Positions 1 through 23,761 of a stretch of DNA of 38,110 bases are shown in pieces. Position 1 is the stretch's first letter, and each line of letters starts with the position of its first letter. The position numbers were made by a program, and so were the translations under genes. Origin of the DNA: an uncultured Bacilli bacterium. Lineage in GTDB: Bacteria > Bacillota_I > Bacilli_A > RF39 > UBA660. The stretch lies in the NCBI GenBank assembly GCA_944332555.1, contig CALVKF010000009.1, forward strand, positions 1 to 38,110, given 5' to 3'. The notes beneath the pieces were generated by a model. The model searched no databases. It was not told the DNA's origin and worked only from the letters and a program-made list of their open reading frames with translations.

Positions 1-99
1 TGGAAAGATAAGAAAATTACTGCTCGTGAAGCTATGAAAAAATTAAATTTAAAACCAAATACATTTTATAATATGGTTAAGAATGAGAATGATAGATAA
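1..99 (+). CDS. Serine site-specific recombinase, C-terminal end (partial)
   Basis: Only the last 32 residues are in the window; the gene begins to the left. The tail carries the pattern ITAREAMKKLNLKPNTFY, which is the C-terminal helix-turn-helix end of resolvase/invertase-type serine recombinases (established family pattern, recalled rather than searched). Such enzymes invert, resolve or integrate DNA at short sites. The gene stops at a TAA and is followed by an imperfect hairpin. Its relation to the element to the right cannot be decided from this fragment. Confidence 0.6.
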   Translation, partial: WKDKKITAREAMKKLNLKPNTFYNMVKNENDR

Positions 100-101
100 A
101 A

Positions 102-150
102 ATATAAGGGATACATTAAGTGATTATAGGTATATATGTATCCCTCATAT
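102..150 (+). terminator. Imperfect hairpin after the recombinase gene
   Basis: ATATAAGGGATAC (102-114) pairs with GTATCCCTCATAT (138-150) with one A/C mismatch and a 23-nt loop. Only a short T-run follows (151-153), so it is a weak terminator candidate or a structured site. Confidence 0.4.
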
Positions 151-366
151 TTTCTCGGTATTTACGGTAACTCTTCACTTCAAGGGATAAAGTGATGTAG
201 ATTTAAAAATTTTTTTAGTTTAAAAATATATTTTTTTTTACTAGTGTACTTTTTTATAATAATTTTAAAGAACATATCCCTTTATCCCTTCTTTTAAAAA
301 AACATTGTAAGAACAACAAAAAAATAAGGGATAGTTTATTCTTTCTTATCACTCGGCATATCCCTT
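106..366. repeat. Cluster of AAGGGATA octamers in both orientations
   Basis: Exact AAGGGATA occurs at 106-113, 182-189 and 326-333, and its complement TATCCCTT at 275-282, 283-290 (in tandem) and 359-366; a near copy lies at 138-146. Two pairs form the arms of hairpins. The 236-bp gene-free stretch 100-335 holds nothing else that I recognise. It could be a set of binding sites or part of a replication or transfer origin. Confidence 0.5.
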
Positions 367-371
367 ATTTT
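313..371 (-). terminator. Terminator of the zinc-ribbon protein gene, overlapping its stop codon
   Basis: On the minus strand AAAATAAGGGATA (371-359) pairs perfectly with TATCCCTTATTTT (333-321) and runs into seven T's followed by GTTG. The gene's stop codon (336-338) sits inside the loop. Confidence 0.7.
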
Positions 372-1979
372 CTTATTTCTAGCTTTTTTACGACATTCTT
401 CACTACAATATATTTTATTTTTTTCTGTAGGAGTAAAAAATTTTCCACAAAATTTACACTGTTTATCGTTCCGATATCCTATCCTTGTTATTTTTTCTTG
501 TGTTAAGAGAGTAGCAGCTTCACACAGATTATGAAAGAATATTTGTGAAAATTCACTATCATCAAAATCATCTTTCTTTTTTTTATTATTTGGTTTATAC
601 TTAAATTTGTTATCAGATTCAGAATAATCTTTTTTACCATCAAATTCTATTTTTTCATATTTTGTTTTAAAATCTAGAATTTTCATATTCAAATTACTAT
701 CTAATTTAGAGTAGTTAGTTTTAGTTTCATATGTAAATTTCAGATTTTCTTTTACATCTATTTTAGAACCAACTTTTTCAGGTGTTTTAAAATAAAAAAC
801 TTCTTTTATTCTTTCATCTGCTGTTTGTTGTTGAGTGAGAATAGTATAAATTAAGTAATTATATATACTATTAACAATCAATGGTTCACACGGAATAAAC
901 ATTTCGTTAGAAAAATAGTTTGGATCATCCACTTTTTCTATATAATTAACTACTTTATTATCATCCTTTATTATATAGTAGTTAGATTTTTTGTATCTAT
1001 TTTTTTCAAATAGTTCTTTTCCTTCTTCTTTTAAAATATAACATTCTAATCTGAATATTTTTTTAATTTTTTTTAAATATTCTTCTTTATCAGAGTTATA
1101 CACAAAATATGGAAATCCATATATTTCTAACCATTTTATAATAATTTTGCTTAAATCCACTATCTGATCACATGAAAAGAATACTTTTAGTGGAGAAAAA
1201 CCAAATTTTTCATCAAAATCCCATTTAGTTATAGTGTTTAAATTTTTTTTATTACCAATTCTAATATCTTTTCTTATATCTATATCATACATCTTCTCCA
1301 ATTCTCTTATTTCATCATTTATTTCTTCAAATTCAAATGTTTCAAGACCAAAAAATAGTTGATGTACTAATCTGTTATTCTCTATATTCTTATATTTTTT
1401 TAGTGTCTTTTTTAGTACATTATATAGTTTTTTAAGTAAATCAGTAATATCATATTTAGTATAATAAAGTAAAATAGTTAAAGAGTTTATAATCGATTCG
1501 ATAGTATCTGTATATTTAATCATATGTGTACAATCGGTTCTTTCAGCATAATAATAATTTATCTCATCTATTTTCCTTAGTAATTCTAGTTGTTCTTTTG
1601 TAAAATTTGTATCCATTACGATTTGTTCAACAAAAAAACTTTTTAATTCCTGTCTATCAAAATTGTCTTGAGGATTAGAACTGTCATCAAAAAAATAGTT
1701 ATTATTGAAACACACTTTATTTTTTGCGGAAGCTAATTCAAATAAATCTTTACCAAGTTTAAGATAGTCATCAAAAAAAGATTTTTCTGGTATTGTAATG
1801 AAATTATTACTATTCTTTCTTCTATTAATTCCTTTAATATAAAAACTATAACTACCCATCTTATTAACTTTACCTTTTAAGGTAGTAGAAAGTAATCTAT
1901 AAACACCATAATCAATGAATTCATATCTTTCAAACATTGGGATGTCTTTAGTGTAGATATATTTTTCTTTAGATGCCAT
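336..1979 (-). CDS. Unknown 547-aa protein with C-terminal zinc ribbon (DUF6076-like)
   Basis: The ATG at 1979 is chosen because GGTGAT lies 5 nt before it; the in-frame ATG 33 bp further upstream (2012) has no ribosome binding site. The protein is Lys/Asn/Glu-rich, has no signal peptide or membrane segment, and ends in a zinc-ribbon-like module, CKFCGKFF followed by CSEEC, with a basic tail. This layout resembles DUF6076-type proteins found on Firmicutes mobile elements (recalled, not searched). The zinc module suggests nucleic-acid contact, but the function is unknown. It is transcribed against the rest of the element from a compact promoter and has its own terminator, so it is probably cargo or a regulator. 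Confidence 0.6.
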   Translation of the reverse strand: MASKEKYIYTKDIPMFERYEFIDYGVYRLLSTTLKGKVNKMGSYSFYIKGINRRKNSNNFITIPEKSFFDDYLKLGKDLFELASAKNKVCFNNNYFFDDSSNPQDNFDRQELKSFFVEQIVMDTNFTKEQLELLRKIDEINYYYAERTDCTHMIKYTDTIESIINSLTILLYYTKYDITDLLKKLYNVLKKTLKKYKNIENNRLVHQLFFGLETFEFEEINDEIRELEKMYDIDIRKDIRIGNKKNLNTITKWDFDEKFGFSPLKVFFSCDQIVDLSKIIIKWLEIYGFPYFVYNSDKEEYLKKIKKIFRLECYILKEEGKELFEKNRYKKSNYYIIKDDNKVVNYIEKVDDPNYFSNEMFIPCEPLIVNSIYNYLIYTILTQQQTADERIKEVFYFKTPEKVGSKIDVKENLKFTYETKTNYSKLDSNLNMKILDFKTKYEKIEFDGKKDYSESDNKFKYKPNNKKKKDDFDDSEFSQIFFHNLCEAATLLTQEKITRIGYRNDKQCKFCGKFFTPTEKNKIYCSEECRKKARNKKIRDMPSDKKE

Positions 1980-1995
1980 AAAATCACCGCTATAT

Positions 1996-2004
1996 ATAAT
2001 ATCA
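1996..2004 (-). promoter_or_regulatory. Extended -10 promoter of the zinc-ribbon protein gene
   Basis: The minus strand reads TGATATTAT, an extended -10 about 16 nt from the GGTGAT-ATG start. The -35 region is weak, and the leader would be only about 10 nt. Confidence 0.4.
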
Positions 2005-2085
2005 CAGAACATTTAAAAAAAGAATATTTTTTTTTATAAATTATTTTTTTTCCATAGTAAGGGGAAAATTGATGATTGAAAAAGC

Positions 2086-2319
2086 ATGAAAATTTATGAA
2101 AATAGCAGTTTGTTTAGTTTGACAAAATGGGATTATTCCATATTGCGGTACAATAGGTCTCGTCAGCAACAAATAAGTGCTCGAGCATATTTGGATGTTG
2201 ATGATAGAAAGATATTGGAAATGCAGTTTGTCTTGTTTGACAAAATAGAACTACTATCTTTCTGTGTTAAAGTAATTTCGTCAGCAACAAATAAGTGCTC
2301 GAGCATATTTGGATGTTGA
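2086..2319 (+). pseudogene. 5' part of a gene split by a 118-bp tandem repeat
   Basis: This reading frame starts at an ATG that overlaps the stop of a tiny upstream ORF (ATG 2072, five codons, SD AAGGGG), in the arrangement ATGA. Its first 25 codons are unique; then it enters the 118-bp repeat in the frame RQQQISARAYL and is thrown out of frame in the second copy, ending at TGA 2317-2319. Deleting two repeat copies (236 bp) joins codon 25 to the frame of the gene at 2427-2954, giving one continuous 210-residue ORF. It is therefore read as the front part of that gene rather than as a separate protein. No known domain is recognised. Confidence 0.5.
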
Positions 2320-2436
2320 TGATAGAAAGATATTGGAAATGCAGTTTGTCTTGTTTGACAAAATAGAACTACTATCTTTCTGTGTTAAAGTAATTTCGTC
2401 AGCAACAAATAAGTGCTCGAGCATATTTGAATGCTG
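2161..2436 (+). repeat. 118-bp tandem repeat, two identical copies plus a 40-bp partial third
   Basis: Copy 1 (2161-2278) and copy 2 (2279-2396) are identical by eye; a third, partial copy (2397 to about 2436) then diverges. Each copy holds the perfect palindrome TGCTCGAGCA inside a longer imperfect inverted repeat of about 42 bp, and also an AGAAAGATA/TATCTTTCT pair around a TTTGTC/GACAAA hairpin. The 56 bp before copy 1 align at the same spacing with the second half of the unit at lower identity, suggesting an older degenerate copy. Confidence 0.85.
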
Positions 2437-2954
2437 ATGAAAAAATGAAAGGATTGGAAATAAAAATGAAAAAATTAGTTAAAATTAATCTTCATTATGG
2501 TTATGCATTAGATGAAACCATAGAAATTAAAGCGGATGATATAGGAAAGTTAAAAATCAATGGAATTGATACATTAATTACTTACGATGAAGAAAAAAGA
2601 TATACTGTTGATGAAGGGTTTAAGCGTTATAAAGTATATCATGAAATTCCTTATTGTAGATTCTTTTTCCTACAACTCGACAAGAATACAGTAGAAAAAT
2701 TTCTATTTGAAAAGATTATCGAGATTAAGAACTTTAGTGCGATTACACTATATTATGAATGTGGTTGTATAGATAGTTATTACTTTTTTAGAAAGTGGAA
2801 AGAAAATACAACAGCTTTGGGAAAGAGCATAGAGTATGGTAATAATGTATTTCAATGGAATCATCTTACTGATGATAATCTTCAAATTACCATTGGACCT
2901 TCAGAATCACTCGATGTAAAAAAATATGATAGTAATCTAATATATATACAGTAA
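2427..2954 (+). CDS. Unknown protein downstream of the tandem repeat (175 aa or less)
   Basis: I do not recognise a family. The frame is open through the third repeat copy upstream (RQQQISARAYL-NADEK), so it is probably the 3' part of a longer gene starting at 2086. The ATG at 2427 has no ribosome binding site. An internal ATG at 2466 has AAAGGA about 13 nt upstream and could give a 162-aa product. The protein is acidic and soluble, with several aromatic-rich stretches and a CGC motif near the middle. It is followed by a perfect 13-bp hairpin. It could be an accessory gene switched by repeat copy number. Confidence 0.5.
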   Translation: MNADEKMKGLEIKMKKLVKINLHYGYALDETIEIKADDIGKLKINGIDTLITYDEEKRYTVDEGFKRYKVYHEIPYCRFFFLQLDKNTVEKFLFEKIIEIKNFSAITLYYECGCIDSYYFFRKWKENTTALGKSIEYGNNVFQWNHLTDDNLQITIGPSESLDVKKYDSNLIYIQ

Positions 2955-2987
2955 AATTCATTATATTGGAAAAATTCTATCTTAGTG

Positions 2988-3027
2988 AGCTAACTATTAC
3001 TAAATCATTATTATGTAATAGTTAGCT
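2988..3027 (+). repeat. Perfect 13-bp inverted repeat before the SSB-like gene
   Basis: AGCTAACTATTAC (2988-3000) and GTAATAGTTAGCT (3015-3027) form a perfect stem with a 14-nt loop and no T-run. It lies 35 bp before the SSB-like gene and could be an operator or an mRNA stem-loop. Confidence 0.55.
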
Positions 3028-3062
3028 GAACTTACATGTTTTATAGAAAGGAATGAGAATAA

Positions 3063-3704
3063 ATGATAGCTAATAATTGGGAAGAAATACTTCCTACAAA
3101 CATACAAGAGTTTGATAAGGTTACACCTAAAGGGTACATTTTTCAGGTAGTTGATATATCAGAATATAGCTCTAATAACGGAAAAGGAAAACTTTGGCGT
3201 ATTAAATTTGATTTTGATGATAATAGTGCTTTAAAAAACTATTGTCAGAGATTATATGAAGCGTTAGGAAGATGGCCGAATGAAGGTACCAAATATTTAA
3301 CTCAACAAAATCAAGGATACATGAAGTACTTTATAGATATTATAGAAAAATCTAACGATGTTAAAATTAATGTTATCCCTGGGCAAAAATTGGAATTATC
3401 TCAATTTAAGGGACTAAAATTTGCTGGTCAGTTAGGTTATACAGAATATGAAAAGGATGGGAAAGTAAAGAAGGGTTTGGAAATTAGAGGTTTTTATGAT
3501 GTGAAAGATGTCGATAATATCCCTATTCCAGATGTCAAATTAATTGATGGTTCTTTTATGAACTATGAAGAATACAAGAAAAAGTTTGGAGAATATACAA
3601 AAGAATGTTTCCAACTTTCAATGGATGTTGATAATCCAAATAATAATCAACTTTCTAGTGTTAATGTCCCTGGTTCTGAAGATGATGATTATCCATTTTT
3701 TTAA
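3063..3704 (+). CDS. SSB-like single-stranded DNA-binding protein of the element (DUF669-like)
   Basis: The 213-aa protein starts at ATG 3063 with AAAGGA upstream. It begins with an aromatic-rich region and ends EDDDYPFF, which copies the acidic tip of bacterial SSBs (DDDIPF), the part that recruits replication and repair partners. The body resembles phage DUF669-type proteins, some of which are annotated as ssDNA-binding (recalled, not searched). It sits directly upstream of the primase-helicase, separated by a hairpin, which fits a replication module. Likely role: coat single-stranded element DNA and load partner enzymes. The acidic tip is the strongest evidence; an OB fold is not provable by eye. 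Confidence 0.65.
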   Translation: MIANNWEEILPTNIQEFDKVTPKGYIFQVVDISEYSSNNGKGKLWRIKFDFDDNSALKNYCQRLYEALGRWPNEGTKYLTQQNQGYMKYFIDIIEKSNDVKINVIPGQKLELSQFKGLKFAGQLGYTEYEKDGKVKKGLEIRGFYDVKDVDNIPIPDVKLIDGSFMNYEEYKKKFGEYTKECFQLSMDVDNPNNNQLSSVNVPGSEDDDYPFF

Positions 3705-3739
3705 TATAGTTAGGGCTTTTTTATAAGGCCCCAACTATA
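3705..3739 (+). repeat. Stem-loop between the SSB-like and primase-helicase genes
   Basis: TATAGTTAGGGC (3705-3716) pairs with GCCCCAACTATA (3728-3739) with one mismatch and an 11-nt T-rich loop. There is no T-run afterwards, so it more likely tunes or processes the mRNA than terminates it. Confidence 0.55.
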
Positions 3740-3774
3740 ATAAGGTTATTAAAAAATAGAAGGAGGAAAATTAT

Positions 3775-6138
3775 ATGAATAACCAAGAAAATCAAATTAA
3801 TGGTGAAAAAAAGATAAAAATAATGGTTGATAGTGTTTCTTTTGATCATAAACCGAGTCCTACTAATGGTGAAGTACAAGCAATTCAGAATAGATTGAAA
3901 AATTCTTCTACAATTCGAGAGGTTACAGTTACTCAACTATATGACTATTTATTAAAAGGATATACTGTTCGCCCTGGTGTTTTAAAAGATGGTGCAAGTA
4001 TTCAGAATTTTTTACAACAACAAACTATCTTTTTAGATATTGATAATAAGGAAGGAAAAACTGTTATAACTTTAGATAGTGTGTTAGCTAAGTTGAAAGA
4101 AGTTAATTTAAACCCATGTTTCTATCATAATACATTTAATTATACTGAAGAATATCCAAGAATTCGGATAGTATTTATATTAGATGAGCCAATTACAAAT
4201 TTAGGTTTAATTACTAGAGCTTTAGAAATATTGAATAATTACATTCCTAATGCAGATACTTCATGTGCTAATCCAGGAAAATTGATGTTTGGTACTAATA
4301 AAGGTGGTTGTATGCTTAATAAAAATGCTACTATTAGTATAGATGATATAATCGCCTTAAATCAAAAAACTGATAAATCTTCTTATAAAAAAAATACAGC
4401 ATTAAATAAGATGATAAGAGATTTTGATTTATTGAACTATGTATCTCAAGAATATGGATCACCAGTAAGTAGAGGTAGTAATTACTATGCTTTTGATGAT
4501 TGCCCTATTTGCGGTACTCACGGATGTTTTCGCATTTATGATGATAACACTTTCTATTGCTTTGATCCTAAAGGTTTAACAGGTGGGACTATTATAGAAT
4601 ACTTAATGGCTACCAAAAAAATGAGTAAATCAGAAAGTATTAATTACTTCAAATATGAAATTATGGGTTTGTCAAAGGAAGATGATGACTCAGGTGAAAA
4701 ATATAGGGATAATTTAGAGCAAAAAATCAAAAAGTTACCTATACAAATTACTCTTCCAGAAAAAATTAATTGGATAATGAAAACAAAACATGGTGTTGAT
4801 ATAAACCCTGCTATTCTTTCTAAATTTATTTTAAGTCAAATTTACTTCTTTATAATTAAATCCTATGTGGATAAAAATACTGTAAAGTACCTTTATAGTG
4901 ATAATGTTTATAAAGAATGTTCTGATATGGAATTAAAAAAAATAATTGAAGCTCTAATGCCAGATGGTTTAGAGTCAAGAGAAGGTATTGAGAAAACACT
5001 TTATTTATTATGTGTCAAAGCTAAGTATTTGAAAATGAAGGATGTTAATGATAATGAAGATATTATTAATTTCAAAAATGGTATTTATCATTTTAGTACA
5101 GACTCTTTAGAACCTCATAGTCCAAAATACTATGTAACTATTCAAATAGATGCAAATTACATAAAAGATCTCGAATCACCACCAACTCATTACTATGATA
5201 ATTTTATGAAAGATTTTACTACTAGTGAAATGGATAAACAGCAAGTTCTTGAAGAATTTTCAGGATTAACAATTTCTAGTATAGATGCCTCTAGAATAAA
5301 AAGCGTGCTTATATTAGTTGGTGAAGGTCATACAGGGAAATCTAAATATATAAGTTTACATGAAAATCTTGTTGGTGAGGGTAATTTTACTAGTACTGAA
5401 ATCAAAAAGATGGATAGTAATTTCAGTAAAATAAATCTTCTTAATAAAAGGCTTGCATCTTTTAGTGATGTTACTAGTCTTAAACTGCCTAACTTAGATT
5501 TTTTGAAGAAAATGACAGGTGGAGATTCATTGAATGATGCTAGAAAGTATCAAGATGCAATTGATTTTACATTTAAGGGTGTTGCTATGATGTCGATGAA
5601 TCAATTTATGAAATTTGGTGGAGATGCTGGGCCTCATGTGTGGGATCGTTTCGTTATTGTTGAAACTCCTAATGCAATACCACCTGAGAAAAGGGATAAG
5701 GACTTATTAAAACATTTACTTGAGGAAAAAGATTATATTGTTTCTAGGGCTATTAAAGCAGTTCGAAAAGTTATAGAAAATAATTATACTCTTTCTATTC
5801 CTGAAAGTTCAATAAAATCTAGAGAGTATTTTAGGATTGAACATGATAGCCTTGCAAGATTTATTAAAGAGTGTACCGAAAGAGTAATACGCGAACCTGA
5901 AATTGATGATCCTACAACTGGCCAATTTTACCAAATTTATAAAAATTGGTGTAAGGATAACAACAATAATTTTACAGAGGATTACAAAAATTTCAGAAAG
6001 GCTTTACTTGCAGAAACTAAAGAAACGCTGGTTAAAAAAACATTTGGTGGTAATACCTATTTCAGATATATAATTCCAAGTGATGAAATAAAAAATACAT
6101 ATGGAACAGAAATGGGATTATTCAAAAAAAGATATTAG
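3775..6138 (+). CDS. Primase-helicase replication protein (AEP primase, zinc ribbon, SF3/D5 helicase)
   Basis: The 787-aa protein has SD AGGAGG before ATG 3775. About residues 60-190 look like an archaeo-eukaryotic-type primase: LDID (acidic pair near residues 88 and 90) and YPRIRIVF. Residues about 243-267 form a zinc ribbon, CPICGTHGC followed by FYCF, as in primases. From about residue 515 there is a superfamily 3 (D5/P4-like) helicase: Walker A GEGHTGKS, an acidic FSDVTS segment, then HVWDRF as the likely arginine-finger region. The C-terminus (about 692-787) is a DNA-binding-like domain with PEIDDPTT and YFRYIIP. Proteins of this type unwind and prime DNA to start replication of phages, satellites and plasmids. 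The next gene repeats its C-terminal domain. Confidence 0.85.
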   Translation: MNNQENQINGEKKIKIMVDSVSFDHKPSPTNGEVQAIQNRLKNSSTIREVTVTQLYDYLLKGYTVRPGVLKDGASIQNFLQQQTIFLDIDNKEGKTVITLDSVLAKLKEVNLNPCFYHNTFNYTEEYPRIRIVFILDEPITNLGLITRALEILNNYIPNADTSCANPGKLMFGTNKGGCMLNKNATISIDDIIALNQKTDKSSYKKNTALNKMIRDFDLLNYVSQEYGSPVSRGSNYYAFDDCPICGTHGCFRIYDDNTFYCFDPKGLTGGTIIEYLMATKKMSKSESINYFKYEIMGLSKEDDDSGEKYRDNLEQKIKKLPIQITLPEKINWIMKTKHGVDINPAILSKFILSQIYFFIIKSYVDKNTVKYLYSDNVYKECSDMELKKIIEALMPDGLESREGIEKTLYLLCVKAKYLKMKDVNDNEDIINFKNGIYHFSTDSLEPHSPKYYVTIQIDANYIKDLESPPTHYYDNFMKDFTTSEMDKQQVLEEFSGLTISSIDASRIKSVLILVGEGHTGKSKYISLHENLVGEGNFTSTEIKKMDSNFSKINLLNKRLASFSDVTSLKLPNLDFLKKMTGGDSLNDARKYQDAIDFTFKGVAMMSMNQFMKFGGDAGPHVWDRFVIVETPNAIPPEKRDKDLLKHLLEEKDYIVSRAIKAVRKVIENNYTLSIPESSIKSREYFRIEHDSLARFIKECTERVIREPEIDDPTTGQFYQIYKNWCKDNNNNFTEDYKNFRKALLAETKETLVKKTFGGNTYFRYIIPSDEIKNTYGTEMGLFKKRY

Positions 6139-6161
6139 AAATGAGAAAGGAATGATGAAAA

Positions 6162-6554
6162 ATGACTAAAAAATTTAGAAAATATGGAAAAAAATTAAGA
6201 AAAGACAGGAAAAAAGCTGATAAATCGTTTAAGGAGTTTATTAAAAAATGTACTGTGAGAGTTAAGCGTGACCCTGAAATTGATGACCCTACAACTAGCC
6301 AATTTTTTCAAATTTATAAAAATTGGTGTATGGAAAATTTCAAACCTTATACGTGTTATTTGGATTTTAAGGAGAAAATGATTAAAAAAACTGGTGAATT
6401 TTGGGTTACAAACTCATTTGGTGATAGTATCTACTTCAGATATATAATCCCAACTGATGAAGTGAAAAATAGGTATGGAATAAAAATGGGAGTATTTGGA
6501 GAAAATACTGAAGCAAGTTTAGTTAGTCAAAAAAAGAAGAAAAAAAAGCAATAA
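6162..6554 (+). CDS. Stand-alone copy of the primase-helicase C-terminal domain
   Basis: The 130-aa product aligns over about 90 residues with the end of the preceding protein, sharing PEIDDPTT, QIYKNWC and YFRYIIP. The DNA is also very similar around 5906-5965 and 6273-6330, so the duplication looks recent. The copy has a very basic N-terminus (KKLRKDRKKADK) and a poly-Lys tail, both absent from the parent domain, and lacks the primase and helicase parts. SD AAAGGA precedes ATG 6162, 23 bp after the previous stop. Likely a small DNA-binding protein that recognises the same site or partner as the replication protein, as accessory factor or competitor; this is inference. Confidence 0.7.
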   Translation: MTKKFRKYGKKLRKDRKKADKSFKEFIKKCTVRVKRDPEIDDPTTSQFFQIYKNWCMENFKPYTCYLDFKEKMIKKTGEFWVTNSFGDSIYFRYIIPTDEVKNRYGIKMGVFGENTEASLVSQKKKKKKQ

Positions 6555-6661
6555 CTAACAAAGTTAGAGAATATGGTAATATAAGAAAATACAGAAATTC
6601 TTAGCGTGCCACTTTTAATTACATAAGATATCATTACTCTAAAATGAAAGGATGATTGTAT

Positions 6662-7042
6662 GTGATAGTTTGGAGTGATCGGATTAGAAAAGCAATTGAT
6701 ATTTTTAATGCTGTATCGAATCAGCTATTAAAATTAGAGTTTGATGTAGATGGTGTTATCGAAATTTTTAATAATGGTGCTGAACAAGGTGCTTTATTGA
6801 AAATATTTGATAAATATGATCCTGAACTAGACTTATGTATATGGGCCTATTTACCACGTGAAAGAGATTGTAACAATCAAATGGAAGTGTTAGTAGGACA
6901 TCATATTGATTGTACTGAAAATAACATGTGGAGGGAAAATGTCAAACCAAAAATATTTACACAGATTAGAGCTAGAGAGTTACATAAAGAAGTTAGAGAT
7001 TATATACTGGAAGTAATTACTTCCAGATTAGAACGCAAGTAA
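6662..7042 (+). CDS. Unknown small soluble protein
   Basis: I do not recognise this protein (126 aa from GTG 6662). AAAGGA lies 9 nt before that GTG; an alternative TTG at 6656 is only 3 nt from the same site. There is no signal peptide or membrane segment. It has two Trp-rich segments (WSDR, WAYLPRER) and two His near the middle (GHHIDC). It lies between the replication genes and the Xis-like gene in one transcription direction, so it may be a small regulator or accessory protein of the element. Confidence 0.55.
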   Translation: MIVWSDRIRKAIDIFNAVSNQLLKLEFDVDGVIEIFNNGAEQGALLKIFDKYDPELDLCIWAYLPRERDCNNQMEVLVGHHIDCTENNMWRENVKPKIFTQIRARELHKEVRDYILEVITSRLERK

Positions 7043-7058
7043 TAAAGGAGGAATTGAT

Positions 7059-7376
7059 GTGGAAAAAGAAAACATTACTTGTTTAAGTGATTTATTTATT
7101 GGTATAGGGAATCTTATTAAAAGTTATGAAAACAACTTAGAATTAGATACTATAAAGGAAAGTAAGAAAGAACTTTATAGTATAAATGAGATTATGGAAA
7201 TATACCCAAAATTAAGTAAGTATATTATCACTAAGGCTATCAATGAAAAGTTGTTACCTGTTACATGGATAGGAAATGAAAGACACTTTTATATTAGTGA
7301 TGTAGATAACTTCCTACAAGCGAGTACTAACAAGAAAAACAATATAACTACGTGGCGAACTCATGAGCAAATCTAA
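7059..7376 (+). CDS. Helix-turn-helix protein, probable excisionase (Xis)
   Basis: The 105-aa protein starts at GTG 7059 after a strong SD (AAAGGAGGA). Residues about 42-90 (LYSINEIMEIYPKLSKYIITKAI, then RHFYISDVDNFL) have the pattern of MerR-type HTH_17/excisionase domains: a recognition helix followed by a short wing. It overlaps the integrase start by 14 bp, so the two are translationally coupled. That pairing fits a recombination directionality factor; a transcriptional regulator of int is the alternative. Confidence 0.65.
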   Translation: MEKENITCLSDLFIGIGNLIKSYENNLELDTIKESKKELYSINEIMEIYPKLSKYIITKAINEKLLPVTWIGNERHFYISDVDNFLQASTNKKNNITTWRTHEQI

Positions 7377-8922
7377 ATTAACTAAAGAAGTGATAGAGCG
7401 ATTTTCTATCACTTTTAATAAAGCTAAAAGTTTGGGAATTACTGATGAAGATTTAAAATATATTTATGAAATCGGTCCAGATAAATTCCGAATTTCAATT
7501 AGATTTAATGGAAGTAGAATTACAGAAGTAGTTTATGGGTTACTCAATGCTATTAATAGGAAATGGGAAATTCTTGATTCTCTAAATAACTCTAATCAAA
7601 AAAATGATGTTGCTACAACAGATGAGAATGAATTTGTTAATCTAACTCTGAAAGAAGGGTTTGAGAAATTTCTTTTATACAGAGAATCGCGACTTAATAA
7701 CAAAAATTTAAGTCAATTAACCTATGATAAAGATGTACTTGCTTATAGAAGTAGGTTCATACAAGATTCTGGGTTATTAGATAAGAAGATAGTAGATATT
7801 ACTGTAGAAGATGCACAACAATATGTTGATTATCTCTTCTCTGCTAAACCTCTTAATGATACCAATAAAGGGGTCTTGTCTGAAAATACAATTAACAATC
7901 CTTATGAATTAATGCACAAAGCATTTGAGTACTTTAGAAATAAAATAAAAATTATATCAGAAAATCCATTTGATGAGGTTGATAGAAAGCCAAAATATAA
8001 ACCTAAAAGTAGAAATTATTTAGCTAATGTAGATATACATTTGGTACTTGATAAAGTTAATAATAAGAATATTAGATTTAAATTGTTAGTTAATTTATTT
8101 TTGGAAACTGGCTTACGTATAGAAGAAATCTTAGCAATAAAGTATTCTGATATTAATAGAAACAGATGTACTTTGAAAATTGTACGTGCTTTAATAAAAT
8201 CACGACTTACCAATGAGTTGATTATTAAAGATTTGAAAACAGATTGTAGCGAAAGAGAGATAAGTATTAGTGAGTACACATTGACTTTAGTTGATCAATA
8301 TAGGTATTTTAAAGAACAATGTGGTGTTTTAGTTAGTAATGATGATTTTATATTTACTTCTTGGTTAGATCAAGAGTTAATATCTCCATCAAAATATACT
8401 GCTGAATGGCGTGAGTTTATTCGTTCTTTAGGCTATCAAGAACTTCCTCTTAGAGTACTAAGACATAGTGCTGCGACTTTCATGTTACAGGGTGAAACTA
8501 ATATTGAAGCTGTTAAGAAAAGGTTTGGTTGGTCTAAAGTAAGTACTGTATTGGGGGTTTATAACCAAAGCAATCTTGAAGAAGATAGGAAACTTCTAAA
8601 TAAATTTGAAGAAGAATTTAGAAACTCTCTAGGATTAACTTATGCTGAATTATACCGGATAAGTGTAAACAGATTTAGTAATCAGAGAAAAATAAATTCG
8701 TTTATTCAATATATGTTGGGAAAACCAATTGAAAAAATTAATTATTTAGAAGATTTAAAAATATGCCAAGAGTACCTTTTTCGTTTATTTCCAGTATTTA
8801 AAAAAATTTCAAACATTGATCATTTATTAGATGATGAGGAAATAGATACAATATTTGAAGGATTTAAAAAGGTGTATAAAAAAATAAAAATAGAACCACT
8901 AAATAAAAATAACTTAACCTAA
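7363..8922 (+). CDS. int: Tyrosine-family integrase
   Basis: The 519-aa protein carries the catalytic set of tyrosine recombinases: Arg in TGLRIEE, a lysine hairpin around IKDLKTD, LRHSAATFM (His and Arg of box II) and the nucleophile Tyr in LGVYNQ. A core-binding SAM-like domain precedes it (about residues 90-190). An extra about 90-residue C-terminal extension follows the catalytic Tyr and is longer than usual for the family. The gene overlaps the Xis-like gene, ends in a terminator and lies next to tRNA-Gly sequences, the typical position for an enzyme that integrates and excises an element at a tRNA gene. Confidence 0.9.
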   Translation: MSKSKLTKEVIERFSITFNKAKSLGITDEDLKYIYEIGPDKFRISIRFNGSRITEVVYGLLNAINRKWEILDSLNNSNQKNDVATTDENEFVNLTLKEGFEKFLLYRESRLNNKNLSQLTYDKDVLAYRSRFIQDSGLLDKKIVDITVEDAQQYVDYLFSAKPLNDTNKGVLSENTINNPYELMHKAFEYFRNKIKIISENPFDEVDRKPKYKPKSRNYLANVDIHLVLDKVNNKNIRFKLLVNLFLETGLRIEEILAIKYSDINRNRCTLKIVRALIKSRLTNELIIKDLKTDCSEREISISEYTLTLVDQYRYFKEQCGVLVSNDDFIFTSWLDQELISPSKYTAEWREFIRSLGYQELPLRVLRHSAATFMLQGETNIEAVKKRFGWSKVSTVLGVYNQSNLEEDRKLLNKFEEEFRNSLGLTYAELYRISVNRFSNQRKINSFIQYMLGKPIEKINYLEDLKICQEYLFRLFPVFKKISNIDHLLDDEEIDTIFEGFKKVYKKIKIEPLNKNNLT

Positions 8923-8939
8923 AAAGGCTAAGTTTTTTT
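8911..8939 (+). terminator. Rho-independent terminator of the integrase gene
   Basis: AACTTA and CCT pair with AGG and TAAGTT around a short A-rich loop (one A/C mismatch), followed by TTTTTTT. The stem overlaps the last codons of int. Confidence 0.75.
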
Positions 8940-8941
8940 GT

Positions 8942-8969
8942 AAAAAAATCTCTAAAAACTAGAGATTTT
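8942..8969 (-). terminator. Terminator of tRNA-Gly
   Basis: AAAATCTCTA (8945-8954) pairs with TAGAGATTTT (8960-8969) over a 5-nt loop. On the minus strand the stem runs into TTTTTTT (8948-8942), just past the tRNA 3' end. Confidence 0.7.
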
Positions 8970-8980
8970 AATCATCAAAA

Positions 8981-9055
8981 TGGAGCAAGTAAGCAGATTC
9001 GAACTGCCGTCCTCGCGTTGGCAACGCGATGTACTAACCACTGTACTATACCTGC
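8981..9055 (-). tRNA. tRNA-Gly(GCC)
   Basis: A complete 75-nt cloverleaf with encoded CCA: acceptor GCAGGTA/TACTTGC, D-stem GTAC/GTAC, anticodon stem TCGCG/CGCGA around loop TTGCCAA (anticodon GCC), T-stem GGCAG/CTGCT and discriminator T. It lies between the integrase gene and the attachment-like tRNA fragment, so it may be element-borne. I see no convincing -35/-10 directly upstream (9056-9110, minus strand). Confidence 0.9.
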
Positions 9056-9133
9056 AAATTTTAATTATTTTTGATTAATTTTTTTTGTTGATAAATTAGA
9101 ATAATTGAAACTAATTTAATCAAAGTTTGTTAT

Positions 9134-9155
9134 TTTGGTACACGATTTGGTACAC
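9134..9155. repeat. Paired direct repeat TTTGGTACAC, candidate integrase arm sites
   Basis: TTTGGTACAC occurs at 9134-9143 and 9146-9155, with a 12-bp period. Short paired repeats near attP are typical of the arm-type sites bound by tyrosine integrases; assignment to this integrase is inference. Confidence 0.5.
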
Positions 9156-9191
9156 AAAGCGGTAATTTTTGATTTTCAAAATTAAATCTTT

Positions 9192-9214
9192 CTTATAAAT
9201 CCTTTATTTATAAG
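9192..9214. repeat. Perfect 9-bp inverted repeat inside the element end
   Basis: CTTATAAAT and ATTTATAAG flank a 5-nt CCTTT spacer. It lies between the paired repeats and the attachment core and could be a bend or protein site. There is no T-run suggesting termination. Confidence 0.45.
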
Positions 9215-9249
9215 GGTTTGTAATTTTTGAAATCACACTACAGGTTTAA

Positions 9250-9260
9250 CCTTGGCAAGG
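9250..9260. other. Proposed attachment core in the anticodon loop of tRNA-Gly
   Basis: CCTTGGCAAGG is an 11-bp dyad, the form expected of a tyrosine-recombinase core. tRNA identity stops here: the 5' half of the tRNA is present to the right and unrelated DNA begins to the left. It is proposed as attR of the element. Confidence 0.5.
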
Positions 9261-9289
9261 CCGCATACTAACCGCTGTACTACACCTGC
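9250..9289 (-). pseudogene. Truncated tRNA-Gly(GCC), 5' half only
   Basis: The minus strand from 9289 reads GCAGGTG, D-stem GTAC/GTAT, anticodon-stem strand CGGCC, loop TTGCCAA, then only GG of the returning strand before unrelated sequence. The T-arm and 3' acceptor are missing. It differs at about ten positions from the complete copy at 8981-9055, so it is a different tRNA-Gly gene, not a duplication of the neighbour. It keeps a strong promoter. Confidence 0.8.
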
Positions 9290-9297
9290 GTAAATAA

Positions 9298-9326
9298 ATT
9301 GTATCAAATTTCTACTTTTTTTGCAA
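9298..9326 (-). promoter_or_regulatory. Promoter of the truncated tRNA-Gly, reading into the element
   Basis: The minus strand has TTGCAA (9326-9321), a 17-bp spacer and TACAAT (9303-9298) with an extended TGA. The predicted start is near 9291, just before the tRNA 5' end. Confidence 0.75.
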
Positions 9327-9332
9327 CAATAA

Positions 9333-9361
9333 TTGATTAAAAATGTAAATATTGCTATAAT
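9333..9361 (+). promoter_or_regulatory. SigA promoter of the envelope operon
   Basis: TTGATT (9333-9338), a 17-bp spacer and TATAAT (9356-9361) with extended TG. It is divergent from the tRNA promoter and gives a leader of about 16 nt before the SD. Confidence 0.75.
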
Positions 9362-9383
9362 ATTGTTTGTAAGAAGGGAAAAT

Positions 9384-11405
9384 ATGAAGAAAAAAATAAA
9401 AAAAACATTAAAAACAATTCGTAAAAGTATTGTTGAATATATAATTACTAATCGTTTATTTATATCTTATGTAATACTTGCAATAATTGGTACAATGTTT
9501 GTAAGATATTTTACCATAGGCAATTTTTTTAGCTTTAAACCATTTATAACTGATTTAGGAATAATTCTAATTATTGGTGGTTTAGGTTATTTTGTTAAGC
9601 CTAAAAATCAATTTAAATATTATTTTATATGGTTAATAATATTTACAATAATTAATGTTATAAATTCTATTTATTATAAATTCTATGTTAATTTTGCATC
9701 CATTGGCTATTTAGATACTGTATCCCAAGCGGAAACTGTAACTGGTTCAATCTTTGAAAAATTAAGTGCTTTTGATATTATGTATATATTGGTACCAATA
9801 ATATTTTATGTAATTCATAAAAAATTATTATCATCATCTTATTATTATTTTATTGATAAAATAGAAAAAGGTAAAAAAATGGTAGTAACAACTCTTTTGG
9901 TGGGTGCCCTATGTCTTGGTTATAGCTTTGGTACTGCTGAAAGTAAAGATTATTCGCGCCTTGCTAAACAATGGAATAGAGAATATGTGGTTGAAAGATT
10001 TGGTATTTTAATGTATCAAGTAAATGATGCTGTTCAAGTTGTTAGAACTAAACTTAGTAGTTTATTTGGAGTTGAAGAAGCAGAGGCGATTTTTGATGCT
10101 TATATTGATCAAAAAGAAGAACATGTGGACAATGAATATACAGGTATTTTAAAGGGAAAAAATATTGTATTTGTTCATATGGAAGGAATGCAAACTTTCT
10201 TAATGGATTTAGAATTTAATGGAGAGGATGTTACTCCAAATTTAAATAGGCTTGCTAGTGAAGGAATGTTTTTCTCAAACTTCTATCCTCAAGTAAGTAC
10301 TGGTACTTCATCAGATACCGAATTTACTTTACTTACAGGATTAATGCCTGCAGCAAGTGGAGCTGTATTTACAAGTTATTATGATAGAGAATATTTTACA
10401 ATACCTAAATATTTACAAGAATTAGGATATTATACATTTAGTATGCATGGCAATTTTGTTGGTATGTGGAGTAGAGATAGAGCTCATCCATCTCTTGGTT
10501 ATGAAGGAATGTATTTTGAAGAATCATTTACTTATGAAGAGTCTGATGTTATTAATCTAGGTATAAATGATAGATTGTTCTTTAAACAAGCTATACCAAT
10601 TATGGAAAATATTGAAAGTACTTATGAAAATTATATGGGGTATGTAATTACTTTATCAAATCACTCACCATTTTATGAAGCAGCTCCATATAGTAATTTA
10701 GATTTATCAAGTCATTATACAAAAATTAACCCTGATACTTTAGAAGAAGTAGATATGAGTGTTGATTATTTATCAGATACAGCAGTTGGACAGTATATAA
10801 AAAGTGCTAATTATGCAGATATGGCTCTTGGAGATTTCTTAAATTACATCAATGAATCAGATGCTTTTGATGATACAGTATTTGTCTTCTTCGGAGATCA
10901 TGATGCTAAACTTAATCGGGGAGAAATAAATTATTTATATAATTTAAATCCTGAAACTGGTGAAGAATACGAAGAAGGCGACCCGGAATATGTGGAATAT
11001 GATTATTATGATCATGAATTAAATAAAAAAACACCACTTATTATTTGGACTAAAAATGCAGAATTAAGAGATGTATTTAGTGGAGAAATTACTTATTATA
11101 CAGGTATGTATAATGTAGCTCCAACCATACTAAATATGTATGGACTATATAATAAATATGCAGTTGGAGAAGATATCTTTAATGCTAAAGATGATAATTT
11201 AATAGTTTTTCCAAATGGAAATATATTAACTGATAAAGTATATTACAATAATTCTACTGGAGAATATAAAGTATTAGAAGATGGTGCTATAATTGATGAA
11301 GATTATATAGAAAATGTTAGTGCAATTGGGGAAGAAAGACTCGATATATCTAATTTAATTATAGTTTATGATTTACTTGATTCAGTATCCATGACAGGAG
11401 AATGA
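9384..11405 (+). CDS. ltaS: LTA synthase family membrane sulfatase-fold transferase
   Basis: The start is ATG 9384 (SD AAGGG); an upstream in-frame TTG at 9333 lies in the -35 box. The 673-aa protein has about five N-terminal membrane segments, then an extracellular alkaline-phosphatase/sulfatase domain: FVHMEGMQ, the nucleophile region TGTSSDTEF, MHGNF, NHSPF and FGDHDAK. Such enzymes polymerise glycerol-phosphate from phosphatidylglycerol on the outer face of the membrane. From memory, the canonical nucleophile motif is GKTSD with Thr; here the aligned residue appears to be Ser (TSSD). It is the first gene of a three-gene envelope operon. A primase or other phosphoglycerol-transferase relative cannot be excluded. 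Confidence 0.85.
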   Translation: MKKKIKKTLKTIRKSIVEYIITNRLFISYVILAIIGTMFVRYFTIGNFFSFKPFITDLGIILIIGGLGYFVKPKNQFKYYFIWLIIFTIINVINSIYYKFYVNFASIGYLDTVSQAETVTGSIFEKLSAFDIMYILVPIIFYVIHKKLLSSSYYYFIDKIEKGKKMVVTTLLVGALCLGYSFGTAESKDYSRLAKQWNREYVVERFGILMYQVNDAVQVVRTKLSSLFGVEEAEAIFDAYIDQKEEHVDNEYTGILKGKNIVFVHMEGMQTFLMDLEFNGEDVTPNLNRLASEGMFFSNFYPQVSTGTSSDTEFTLLTGLMPAASGAVFTSYYDREYFTIPKYLQELGYYTFSMHGNFVGMWSRDRAHPSLGYEGMYFEESFTYEESDVINLGINDRLFFKQAIPIMENIESTYENYMGYVITLSNHSPFYEAAPYSNLDLSSHYTKINPDTLEEVDMSVDYLSDTAVGQYIKSANYADMALGDFLNYINESDAFDDTVFVFFGDHDAKLNRGEINYLYNLNPETGEEYEEGDPEYVEYDYYDHELNKKTPLIIWTKNAELRDVFSGEITYYTGMYNVAPTILNMYGLYNKYAVGEDIFNAKDDNLIVFPNGNILTDKVYYNNSTGEYKVLEDGAIIDEDYIENVSAIGEERLDISNLIIVYDLLDSVSMTGE

Positions 11406-11406
11406 T

Positions 11407-12030
11407 ATGAAGAAAAAATATAAAAGAATATTAATAATAATTCTAATAGTTGTACTGCTTGCTATTATATCTTTTGTAATATATAAAATTTTATTAAATA
11501 ATAAAACGGAAGAAGAAGTAGTAAATGTAGTTGATAGTATTTCCGAATATGGATACAATTTAGATGATCGAGATACTGAACTCATGAAAAGTACTTATGA
11601 GGAATTAAAAAACATTTTAAATAGTGATGAAATAGATTATGAACTATATGCGAGTGCTTTAGCAAAACTATTTGTTATTGATTTATTTACAATGGATAAT
11701 AAAATTAACAAATATGATGTTGGAAGTACTGAATATGTTTATCCAGATGCCTTGGAAAACTTTAAGTTAAATGTCGAAGATACATTATATAAACATATGG
11801 AAAATAATTCAAGTGGTAAAAGAAAACAAGATTTACCAGAAGTATCTAGTATTGAGGTATTAAGTAATGAAACAGGTGAATATACTATTGAGGAAAATTC
11901 ATTTGATTCCTATATAGTTAATTTGTCATGGCAATATGTAAGTGATTTAGGTTATGATAATAATGCATTAATTACATTAATTAATTTAGATAATAAATTA
12001 TATGTTGTAGAATACGAAGTTGGAGAATAA
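11407..12030 (+). CDS. Membrane-anchored extracytoplasmic protein of unknown function
   Basis: The 207-aa protein has one N-terminal membrane segment (about residues 8-28) after a KKKYKR start and an acidic outside domain of about 175 residues; no family is recognised. It begins 1 bp after the stop of the LTA-synthase-like gene, whose last codons supply the SD (GGAG), and is followed 5 bp later by the LCP gene. The tight coupling suggests a role in making or attaching envelope polymers. The length and mixed alpha/beta look are compatible with an NTF2-like accessory domain, but this is a guess. Confidence 0.7.
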   Translation: MKKKYKRILIIILIVVLLAIISFVIYKILLNNKTEEEVVNVVDSISEYGYNLDDRDTELMKSTYEELKNILNSDEIDYELYASALAKLFVIDLFTMDNKINKYDVGSTEYVYPDALENFKLNVEDTLYKHMENNSSGKRKQDLPEVSSIEVLSNETGEYTIEENSFDSYIVNLSWQYVSDLGYDNNALITLINLDNKLYVVEYEVGE

Positions 12031-21868: not shown

Positions 21869-23761
21869 ATGGCAATTACTAAAACTAATTTTATCAATTA
21901 TAGTCGTTGTCCGAGATATGCGGCCTTAGAAGAAATAAAAAGTGAAAAACTAGATGCCGATATTACTTATAAAGAATATAAGAAGGAAGAAGAAGGGGAA
22001 TGCTTAAAAGAGATATTAGGTAGTATTTTTGAAGATGATACTTATGAAGTTGATTTAACTAATAAAGTCGATAAGCAATTAGAAGCCATGATGCCTTATT
22101 ATAAAATGGTCGAAATTGAAGCGGGTCGTATAACTAAAAAATATTTCGGGGGTAAAAGCGTTTATGCGGAAGATACATTTAGCCAAGAATCATTTGAATT
22201 TAATAAAAACGGTATTAAATATATTTGTTATGTCGATATTTATAATGAGGTATCTAATGATATAAATATCATTGAAGTAAAAGCAACAACATCTAATAAA
22301 TATGTTAATCTAAAAGCAAATCATAAAAAGGGTGAAAAATATTCTATATTTCATTTTGATAAAGATAAAAATTGTTATTATTTAAAAGATGAAATAGGAG
22401 GGTATCCGCTTGATAGTGAAATGCCTTTGGATGCTTATCTAAAACAAAAAGAAAAATTATTTGATAGATATAGTTCTGTTGGATCTTACATCTTTGACCT
22501 AGCTATTCAAAGATTTATTTTGGAAGGTGAATACAAAGAATCACATAATGAAGAAAGATTAAAAAATGTTCATTATTATCTAGCAGTACTTAATCACAAC
22601 TATGTTTTTGATGGCACTTATGAAGGTAAAAAAGCTATTTATAATCCTGATAATGAAGGAAATGAAATAGTAGTGTTTTTTGATTTAACCAAAGTTACGG
22701 AAGAATACCAAGATATTATTAAACAAACCGCAGAAAGTTTGGAAAATTATCTTTTTAACTTAAATGCATCTCCATGTCCTATGGGTAAGTGGTGCGAAAG
22801 AAAAAAGGTAAAAGAATGTATTTATTTAAGTCCTGTCTGCGGTAAAAAGATTCCCGCTAAAAATTCTAGTTTAAATTATTTAAATAATGGTTTTGGTTTT
22901 AAAACTTTAGACGGTGAAAGATTAAAAGGCCTAGAACTAATCAATGCCGGATATATTAATATGTTAGATATACCAGAAGAATGGATTACGAGTAAAAAGC
23001 ATGAAATTCAAAGAGACTGTTTAAGATTTAATAAACCTTACATTGACGCAGAAAAAATAAGAGCAGGTCTAAATGCTTTAGAATATCCGATATATCACCT
23101 AGATTTTGAAACAATGCCATGCCCAATGCCAAGGTTTCGCGGGGAAAAACCTTATATTCAATCACCATTTGAATTTAGCTTACATATTGAACATGCTCCA
23201 GGTGTATGTGATAAAGAAAAAGATAATTATATCTTTTTAGCTAAAACTTTTGATAATGATGAAAGAGAAGAATTAGTTAAAGCTTTATGTAATTATATTG
23301 ATCCTGATAAAGGCACCTTATTTGCGCAGAATGTTGCTTTTGAAAAAGGTCGAATTAAAGAACTGGCAGCTATATTTCCGGAATATCGTGAAAAACTTAT
23401 GAAAATGTATAATCGGGGTTTTGACTTGCTTTGGTTAGTTAATACTAAAACTGAACTTTATGAAGAGTTAGGTTTTGATAAAGAAAGAGCAAGTCTCCCA
23501 AATTATTACAACAAAGATTTAAGTGGTTCTTATTCTATCAAAAAAACCCTGCCAGTTTTTAGTGATTTATCTTACAAAGATTTAACAGTTAAAAATGGTA
23601 CTGAAGCAATTGTTGCTTATGCCAGTTATAATAAAATGACAAAAGAAGAATATGATTTATATTATGAAGCCCTAAGAATTTATTGTCAGCAAGATACTTG
23701 GGCAATGGTTGTAATTTTACAAGCTTTAAGAGAATTATGTCAAATTAGTGTCAAATCTTAA
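21869..23761 (+). CDS. DUF2779 protein: Cas4-like PD-(D/E)XK plus DEDD-type exonuclease-like domain
   Basis: The 630-aa protein begins NFINYSRCPRYAAL, as Cas4/RecB-like nucleases do, and carries Asp123 (CYVDIYNE) and IIEVK (Glu136, Lys138), the PD-(D/E)XK signature. Cys14 plus a cluster at Cys303, 309, 317 and 324 could hold an iron-sulfur cluster or zinc. The C-terminal half is DUF2779-like: YHLDFET (Asp412, Glu414), FAQNVAFEKGRI and YCQQDTWAM (Asp609), a DEDD exonuclease pattern. It has no strong SD and starts 1 bp after the previous stop, so it depends on coupling. A DNA- or RNA-processing role is likely; the substrate is unknown. Confidence 0.75.
   Translation: MAITKTNFINYSRCPRYAALEEIKSEKLDADITYKEYKKEEEGECLKEILGSIFEDDTYEVDLTNKVDKQLEAMMPYYKMVEIEAGRITKKYFGGKSVYAEDTFSQESFEFNKNGIKYICYVDIYNEVSNDINIIEVKATTSNKYVNLKANHKKGEKYSIFHFDKDKNCYYLKDEIGGYPLDSEMPLDAYLKQKEKLFDRYSSVGSYIFDLAIQRFILEGEYKESHNEERLKNVHYYLAVLNHNYVFDGTYEGKKAIYNPDNEGNEIVVFFDLTKVTEEYQDIIKQTAESLENYLFNLNASPCPMGKWCERKKVKECIYLSPVCGKKIPAKNSSLNYLNNGFGFKTLDGERLKGLELINAGYINMLDIPEEWITSKKHEIQRDCLRFNKPYIDAEKIRAGLNALEYPIYHLDFETMPCPMPRFRGEKPYIQSPFEFSLHIEHAPGVCDKEKDNYIFLAKTFDNDEREELVKALCNYIDPDKGTLFAQNVAFEKGRIKELAAIFPEYREKLMKMYNRGFDLLWLVNTKTELYEELGFDKERASLPNYYNKDLSGSYSIKKTLPVFSDLSYKDLTVKNGTEAIVAYASYNKMTKEEYDLYYEALRIYCQQDTWAMVVILQALRELCQISVKS

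Follow-up and report, generated by a model that had tools for sequence, protein, structure and literature searches.

The window analysed here, a stretch of 38,110 nucleotides from an uncultured Bacilli bacterium, is contig C9 of a 1.33-Mb draft genome in 64 contigs (G000), and it begins inside an integrative element. The features of the element and of the host sequence that it adjoins are as follows.

1–9249, no strand: right part of the integrative element, about 20 kb as a whole, with its left part beyond the contig end; 97% identical to the element in G060, complete relatives being 19,814 bp long
3775–6138, + strand: P4-type primase/helicase, the replication gene of the element (TIGR01613, 1e-41; PHROG DNA primase, 4e-59)
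7059–7376, + strand: small protein overlapping the integrase start, putatively excisionase-like in position and make-up, conserved beside the integrase in G061
7363–8922, + strand: tyrosine integrase of 519 aa (Pfam PF00589, 4.3e-17; PHROG integrase, 1e-45; profile match to solved tyrosine recombinases)
8941–8969, − strand: likely terminator hairpin, AATCTCTAGTTTTTAGAGATT and then a T run, read from the sequence immediately downstream of the replacement tRNA; a similar hairpin follows the tRNA at relatives L087–L089
8981–9055, − strand: complete element-borne replacement tRNA-Gly(GCC) with a recoded anticodon stem (TCGCG-TTGCCAA-CGCGA; ARAGORN; Rfam RF00005, 66 bits)
9137–9155, − strand: GTGTACC, present twice in direct orientation at 105 and 117 bp from the core, probably as arm-type sites for the integrase, and spaced identically in G061
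9250–9260, no strand: attachment core CCTTGGCAAGG at the right junction, comprising the anticodon loop and two stem pairs on each side; homology to the empty site begins here, and the same core stands at both ends in G061 and G062
9250–9289, − strand: 5′ part of the broken host tRNA-Gly(GCC), core included, identical to the opening 40 nt of the gene that is intact in G013, G002, G022 and G019
9298–9326, − strand: candidate promoter of the host tRNA-Gly gene (TTGCAA-17-TACAAT, the −10 being preceded by TG), a match to consensus only, at 9 of 12 positions, and conserved upstream of intact genes
9333–11405, + strand: sulfatase-family, lipoteichoic-acid-synthase-like protein, the first host gene on the right and outside the element (family match; flank 93% identical to G013)

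The complete tRNA-Gly(GCC) is supported by both ARAGORN and Rfam, and it lies 193 bp inside the element end that joins the host 5′ half, on the same strand as that half. The second tRNA-Gly, at 9250–9289, consists of the 5′ 40 nt only, ends in CCTTGCCAAGG and is followed by unrelated sequence. A preliminary description of this DNA had noted a tRNA-Gly cut after its anticodon loop and a complete, different tRNA-Gly(GCC) beside the integrase gene, and both observations hold. Searches with the small protein at 7059–7376 returned no family match, and the hairpin at 8941–8969 was not flagged by a terminator scan that demands three G-C pairs. Promoter-like sites such as that at 9298–9326 arise by chance in an AT-rich region.

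The window contains the right junction of an insertion into tRNA-Gly

To find the site as it is in related genomes, we searched the region against 59 genomes, the window's own included, of which 45 match at some level. Strong same-genus matches start at base 9247–9251 and extend rightwards (about 25 genomes besides G013); in G013 the match starts exactly at base 9250 and runs rightwards for 251 bp at 100% identity. Empty sites of the kind that the preliminary description had suggested looking for were thus found: same-genus genomes hold a single intact tRNA-Gly(GCC) at the window's break point with no second tRNA, and the tRNA at 8981–9055 is absent from the site in every empty-site genome compared. 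Because an intact gene stands at the same point in these genomes, 9250–9289 is half of a real gene and not a chance resemblance. The sequence left of the tRNA in G013 (7.4 kb, 97%) is present in the window's genome on contig C14. Together with the empty sites, this shows that an insertion in the anticodon loop has its right junction in the window. In G022, attL occupies the same chromosomal site as in G000, with a flank 98.8% identical to G013 over 6.8 kb.

The missing 3′ part had been expected to start GGCCG, which proved wrong; the continuation on the tRNA strand is GGCTGAGACGGCAGTTCGATTC. A search of G000 with the 3′ half as originally spelled (CCTTGCCAAGGCCG) returned the known site only. 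The correct 3′ half, with three mismatches allowed, was not found in the G000 assembly either, and so attL of the window's own element copy is missing from the assembly. In the single draft G022, both a left junction (L069, G022:C2:34734) and a tRNA-Gly site that is intact and whose right flank matches (L073, G022:C19:3030) are present, a combination that may reflect strain mixture or excision within the population.

Related elements carry the complete tRNA between their attachment cores

Using the integrase (7363–8922) as query, we found five loci in other genomes. At one (L085, in G059) the integrase is 99% identical and the same complete tRNA is present, with a different host 5′ half in front. 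At three others (L087, L088 and L089, in G061, G062 and G063) the integrases are 71–73% identical to that of the window, and each locus has a complete tRNA-Gly(GCC) at a distance of 195 bp from the core, with a host 5′ half in front that differs from one locus to the next. The complete tRNA therefore belongs to the element, as had been proposed, since it travels with the integrase into different hosts (G059, G061, G062 and G063).

Both ends can be read in two of these genomes. In G061, the 5′ half starts at C23:3487, with one core at 3515, and the host 3′ half comes after the left core at 23329; in G062, the 5′ half starts at C12:5482, with cores at 5511 and 25325. The core-to-core length is 19,814 bp in both, and the complete element tRNA lies between the two att cores. 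Acceptor stems of the two halves agree within a genome and differ between genomes (GCAGATG/CATCTGC in G061, GCGGATG/CATCCGC in G062). The rejoined halves make a perfect tRNA, which ARAGORN called as tRNA-Gly in each genome; it called no tRNA at either G061 junction, where each half stands alone, nor at the window junction. The core common to both ends is CCTTGCCAAG(G), 10–11 bp, and a window-type attP is expected to read AAAAAACCTTGCCAAGGTTAAACC. The element boundary is thus the anticodon core, and not the 3′ end of the tRNA at 8981–9055, a placement that would have told against the original proposal. The G061 and G062 elements are 99.8% identical over 19.9 kb and their host tRNA genes differ. 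Near-identical elements in hosts with different tRNA genes show that the element moves, and that one of the two has recently passed between hosts.

The left end of an element 97% identical to the window's was located in G060 (C20, about 21617). G060 and G022, which both have the left end of the element, also have a contig with an intact tRNA-Gly(GCC); their co-occurrence is perhaps due to strain mixture. Matching pairs of GTGTACC lie 168–192 bp inside the left end in G061, G022 and G060, so that such pairs stand inside both ends, the pattern expected of arm-type integrase sites.

Among the proteins scanned, the 20-kb type encodes a P4-type primase, SSB, a DnaB-like helicase and a resolvase. 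No virion gene was found among them, the matches being to replication, integration, resolvase and reverse transcriptase proteins, and no relaxase or T4SS gene was found among the proteins scanned from the window (where part of the element is missing), G061 and G060. The reverse transcriptase, in the G061 element, is retron-type (L138 4393–5457; G061:C23:18393–19457) and has no fused effector domain; its best PADLOC matches are to type XII/XI (1e-118), and the element carrying it is 99.8% identical in G062. In G060 (L086 11629–12843), an inserted transposase-like gene of 404 aa separates the integrase from the element tRNA.

The element tRNA is often the only complete copy found

All genomes compared are drafts, and counts of tRNA genes refer to these assemblies. 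Counting of tRNA-Gly(GCC) genes, as had been recommended, showed that the only complete one found in G000 is the element's (3′-part pattern, and ARAGORN on all Rfam tRNA hits). The same holds for G059, G062, G063 and G383 by the 3′-part pattern, which in G061 detects the element tRNA-Gly(GCC) and the attL half. G000 additionally has a tRNA-Gly(TCC) gene. The element tRNA-Gly is almost constant over three integrase lineages and its anticodon-stem changes are paired (TCGCG/CGCGA, TCTCG/CGAGA and CCGCG/CGCGG), which suggests that it is kept functional.

Downstream of tRNA-Gly(GCC) we also observed small gene-cassette-like units: in L075 (G000:C14) at 4143–4200 and 6640–6660, in L076 (G000:C29) at 133–199, in L072 near 12711 and in L086 at 13158. 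Each closes with a short hairpin and a repeat of the tRNA 3′ end (GCTCCA), after which comes a terminator hairpin (AACTTACGAACT..AGTTCGTAAGTT); the leaders of some read TTCTCTTTCTAGGAAGGAGGAC-ATG. One unit (GAATCACATACAAGTTACG) is joined both in G000:C14 and at the 3′ end of the element tRNA in G060. The units look like an array made by a second recombination system, one acting at the 3′ end of tRNA-Gly.

The same arrangement occurs at tRNA-Trp and tRNA-Cys genes

We ran a profile built from four integrases over 386 genomes of the same bacterial family. This survey found full-length integrase relatives adjoining half tRNA genes, and added a further Gly case (G383). A Trp 5′ half followed by a complete tRNA-Trp was found with gaps of 152 bp (G312), 196 bp (G199 and G216), 251 bp (G411), 253 bp (G357) and 265 bp (G340). 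Both tRNA-Trp halves lie on one contig in G216 and G312, 35.6 and about 44 kb apart, respectively, and the single complete tRNA-Trp in each is the element's. In G357, G199, G340 and G411 the junctions are on different contigs, with the 3′ half beside the integrase on the other contig, and the acceptor stem of each 3′ half fits its own 5′ half (CG, CG, AT and TA at positions 6–7, in that order). In G032, tRNA-Cys halves are 35.8 kb apart with a complete tRNA-Cys inside the element, and no other complete tRNA-Cys was found in this genome. Beyond the end of the first element, G312:C39 (L225) contains more tRNA-Trp 5′ and 3′ pieces at 6315–6372 and 11666–11709, which suggests tandem or nested insertions at the same tRNA-Trp gene.

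A 5′ half could be paired with a complete element copy in 13 genomes: G000, G059, G061, G062, G063 and G383 for Gly; G312, G216, G357, G199, G340 and G411 for Trp; and G032 for Cys. G234, G010 and G196 were left out of the count; each has a tRNA-Trp 3′ half beside the integrase and a complete tRNA-Trp was not located. The carried tRNA has the isotype of the broken one in all 13, and the substitute lies just downstream of the broken 5′ half in 12, G032 being the sole exception. There (L144 and L146, G032:C6), the integrase is at the 3′-half end and the tRNA-Cys is near the integrase, away from the host 5′ half.

In an integrase tree the Gly integrases group together (100/99) and the Trp integrases form two groups. 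The G216 element encodes a MobL relaxase, a T4SS coupling protein, a TraG-type ATPase and TrbL; that of G032 encodes MobL, a TraG-type ATPase and TrbL; and that of G312 encodes a TraG-type ATPase and a MobA/VirD2 relaxase. In each of the three, integrase, relaxase and T4SS ATPase, the combination taken to define an ICE, occur in one element, and their relaxase and type IV secretion genes indicate that they are conjugative. A viral contig collection contained no relative of the window integrase, and phages and plasmids gave weak integrase matches only, those listed having less than 30% identity over at most about 70% of the query.

Gly elements have a recoded anticodon stem, and two types lack a convincing promoter

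Position 31–39 of the anticodon stem is G31-C39 in all three element tRNA-Gly lineages versus C31-G39 in all native genes compared, with a tRNA-Gly(GCC) in G411 as a possible exception. Differences from native genes are enriched in this stem (6/10, 8/10 and 4/10 stem bases, against 7–8/65 elsewhere). The anticodon loop itself is unchanged, and this 7-bp loop is all that the element tRNA has in common with the core. With moderate confidence, we infer that the recoded stem would protect the element's own tRNA gene from the integrase. A comparable stem change is present in G312 (Trp). The core is kept in G216, G199 and G032, and we therefore rejected stem recoding as a universal rule of self-immunity. 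The G411 tRNA-Gly(GCC) (L241, G411:C13:8086–8160) has an element-type stem, CGTTGCCAACG; its surroundings look native, and the nearest 1.5 kb contain no broken half. It may be an element tRNA that has become domesticated, or a site spared by the integrase.

For the Gly copies in the window and G061 types, no promoter candidate is convincing (8–9/12 to consensus, and too near the gene). For this reason we propose, again with moderate confidence, that transcription of these copies starts at the host tRNA promoter and crosses the broken 5′ half. In most Trp copies the tRNA has its own TATAAT-type promoter, 24–37 bp upstream, and host-promoter read-through as a general rule was accordingly dropped and limited to the Gly elements. 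Read-through also fails for G032, whose tRNA sits near the other end.

Integration splits the host tRNA gene and supplies a probable replacement

We conclude with high confidence that an element of about 20 kb integrates in the single host tRNA-Gly(GCC) gene, splits it and supplies a complete replacement. In the mechanism that we propose, the tyrosine integrase acts on a 10–11 bp core, CCTTGCCAAGG, recombining it with its identical counterpart in the anticodon arm of host tRNA-Gly(GCC). Because attP resembles the tRNA in the core alone, integration leaves two useless tRNA halves, one per element end, as is directly visible. The element tRNA-Gly(GCC), probably transcribed from the host tRNA promoter via the broken 5′ half, would take over decoding of GGC and GGU while the element is integrated. 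The recoded stem would stop the integrase from attacking the element's tRNA in Gly elements and in part of the Trp elements, and excision, judging from the halves, would rebuild the host gene.

Of the other explanations considered, one accepts the split and assigns the element tRNA a different role, in codon supply or escape from anticodon nucleases, with loss of the host gene tolerated as tRNA-Gly(UCC) reads all glycine codons. The tRNA-Gly(TCC) gene of G000 would allow this, and work cited within PMC11476347 reports that phage tRNAs altered in the anticodon loop evade host nucleases. We nonetheless consider it improbable: carried and broken isotypes agree throughout the 13 genomes, the genetic code leaves Trp and Cys without a second isoacceptor and the sole complete copies in G032, G216 and G312 are the element's, and it is the stem alone, not the anticodon loop, that differs in the element tRNA.

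Restoration of the target gene is the usual outcome with tRNA-targeting integrases (PMC4383910, PMC8371274), and the element might be an ordinary island of this kind, one that carries the 3′ part, restores the tRNA at one end and has the second tRNA as a passenger. The junctions make this very unlikely. At the junctions read, no tRNA 3′ part follows the 5′ half, no element-supplied 5′ part precedes the 3′ half, and attP and attB overlap by 10–11 bp only. That the host gene is broken without being rebuilt, as first suggested from the window, can be read at both junctions in G061 and G062 (Gly), G032 (Cys), and G216 and G312 (Trp).

Two tRNA-Gly sequences on the same strand, 193 bp apart, could also be what remains of tandem host genes after two successive integrations, one truncated and one complete, an alternative that the preliminary description had raised. 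It is now extremely improbable, as empty sites have one tRNA-Gly and none has the 8981–9055 gene, while the complete gene moves with the integrase into hosts having other tRNA halves and lies between the two att cores in G061 and G062. An assembly artefact, by chimeric contig or binning error in a metagenome-assembled genome, might be suspected in a 64-contig draft whose contig starts within the element, but its probability is close to nil given the same junction with other host flanks in independently assembled genomes and the repetition of the design with two other tRNAs.

Splitting and replacement of the host gene remains our reading. The element tRNA is the only complete copy found in G000, G059, G062, G063 and G383 (Gly), G032 (Cys), and G216 and G312 (Trp); its expression and essentiality are predicted from sequence. 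A stronger version, offered tentatively and in our judgement slightly more likely wrong than right, is that conjugative and other non-phage elements practise obligatory gene replacement: a single-copy tRNA gene with no substitute in the host (Trp, Cys or Gly-GCC) is destroyed, and the element, whose Gly substitute would be shielded by its stem and promoterless until placed behind the host promoter, becomes the sole source of that tRNA. As sole source of an essential tRNA, such an element could be removed by precise excision alone and not by deletion. If true, this would amount to addiction via the genetic code.

Comparison with known systems

The usual rule for islands is a rebuilt tRNA gene (Islander database, PMC4383910; archaeal tyrosine recombinase review, PMC8371274). 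Ordinary islands and ICEs likewise use a tyrosine integrase and a tRNA gene as attB, with the anticodon loop among the usual crossover places, but they carry the tRNA 3′ part and rebuild the gene, whereas the Bacilli elements do neither. Programs that recognise islands by a rebuilt tRNA would overlook such elements, and a tRNA half beside an island is not always a harmless leftover.

The closest parallel is tRNA-dependent lysogeny, described for the actinobacteriophages Fionnbharth, Lebron, Gaia and Mollymur, in which the phage tRNA was shown to be necessary for lysogeny (Guerrero-Bustamante and Hatfull 2024, PMC10865867). Actinophages and Bacilli elements have in common a tyrosine integrase, arm-type sites, a core in the anticodon region (about 8–17 bp in actinophages, PMC10865867; 10–11 bp here), a tRNA that is not rebuilt and a complete tRNA of the same isotype. 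The actinophages are temperate phages of Actinobacteria that target Lys, Ile2 and Leu genes, whereas those described here are integrative and conjugative elements of Bacilli at Gly, Trp and Cys genes. In the Bacilli elements, unlike the actinophages, the substitute usually lies just downstream of the broken 5′ half and the Gly stem no longer matches the core. Essentiality was demonstrated for the actinophage tRNA; here it is a prediction from genome comparison. Outside the actinophages, loss of a tRNA with substitution by an element tRNA is mentioned for the Lactobacillus johnsonii prophage Lj965 (PMC10865867) and for Sinorhizobium prophages similar to Mesorhizobium phage Lo5R7ANS (PMC11476347, PMC12429752); these are prophages, set beside the Bacilli elements by description only.

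The principle is therefore not new, having been published for actinophages (PMC10865867). In the open-access literature, we found no report of such tRNA replacement by conjugative or mobilizable elements. What is new is the carriers, which are non-phage or conjugative, the Gly, Trp and Cys targets, the placement of the substitute in 12 of the 13 genomes, and a recoded Gly stem that removes the element's own attachment core. As the carriers examined do not look like phages, the arrangement works like tRNA-dependent lysogeny and is not lysogeny. It extends to three additional tRNAs, and for two of them, Trp and Cys, there is no back-up isoacceptor, so that an element tRNA gene adjoining an integrase may be the cell's only source of decoder for an amino acid. 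Host tRNA genes can be replaced repeatedly by mobile elements, and a mechanism known from phages of one phylum recurs with the same layout among conjugative and other integrative elements of a different phylum.
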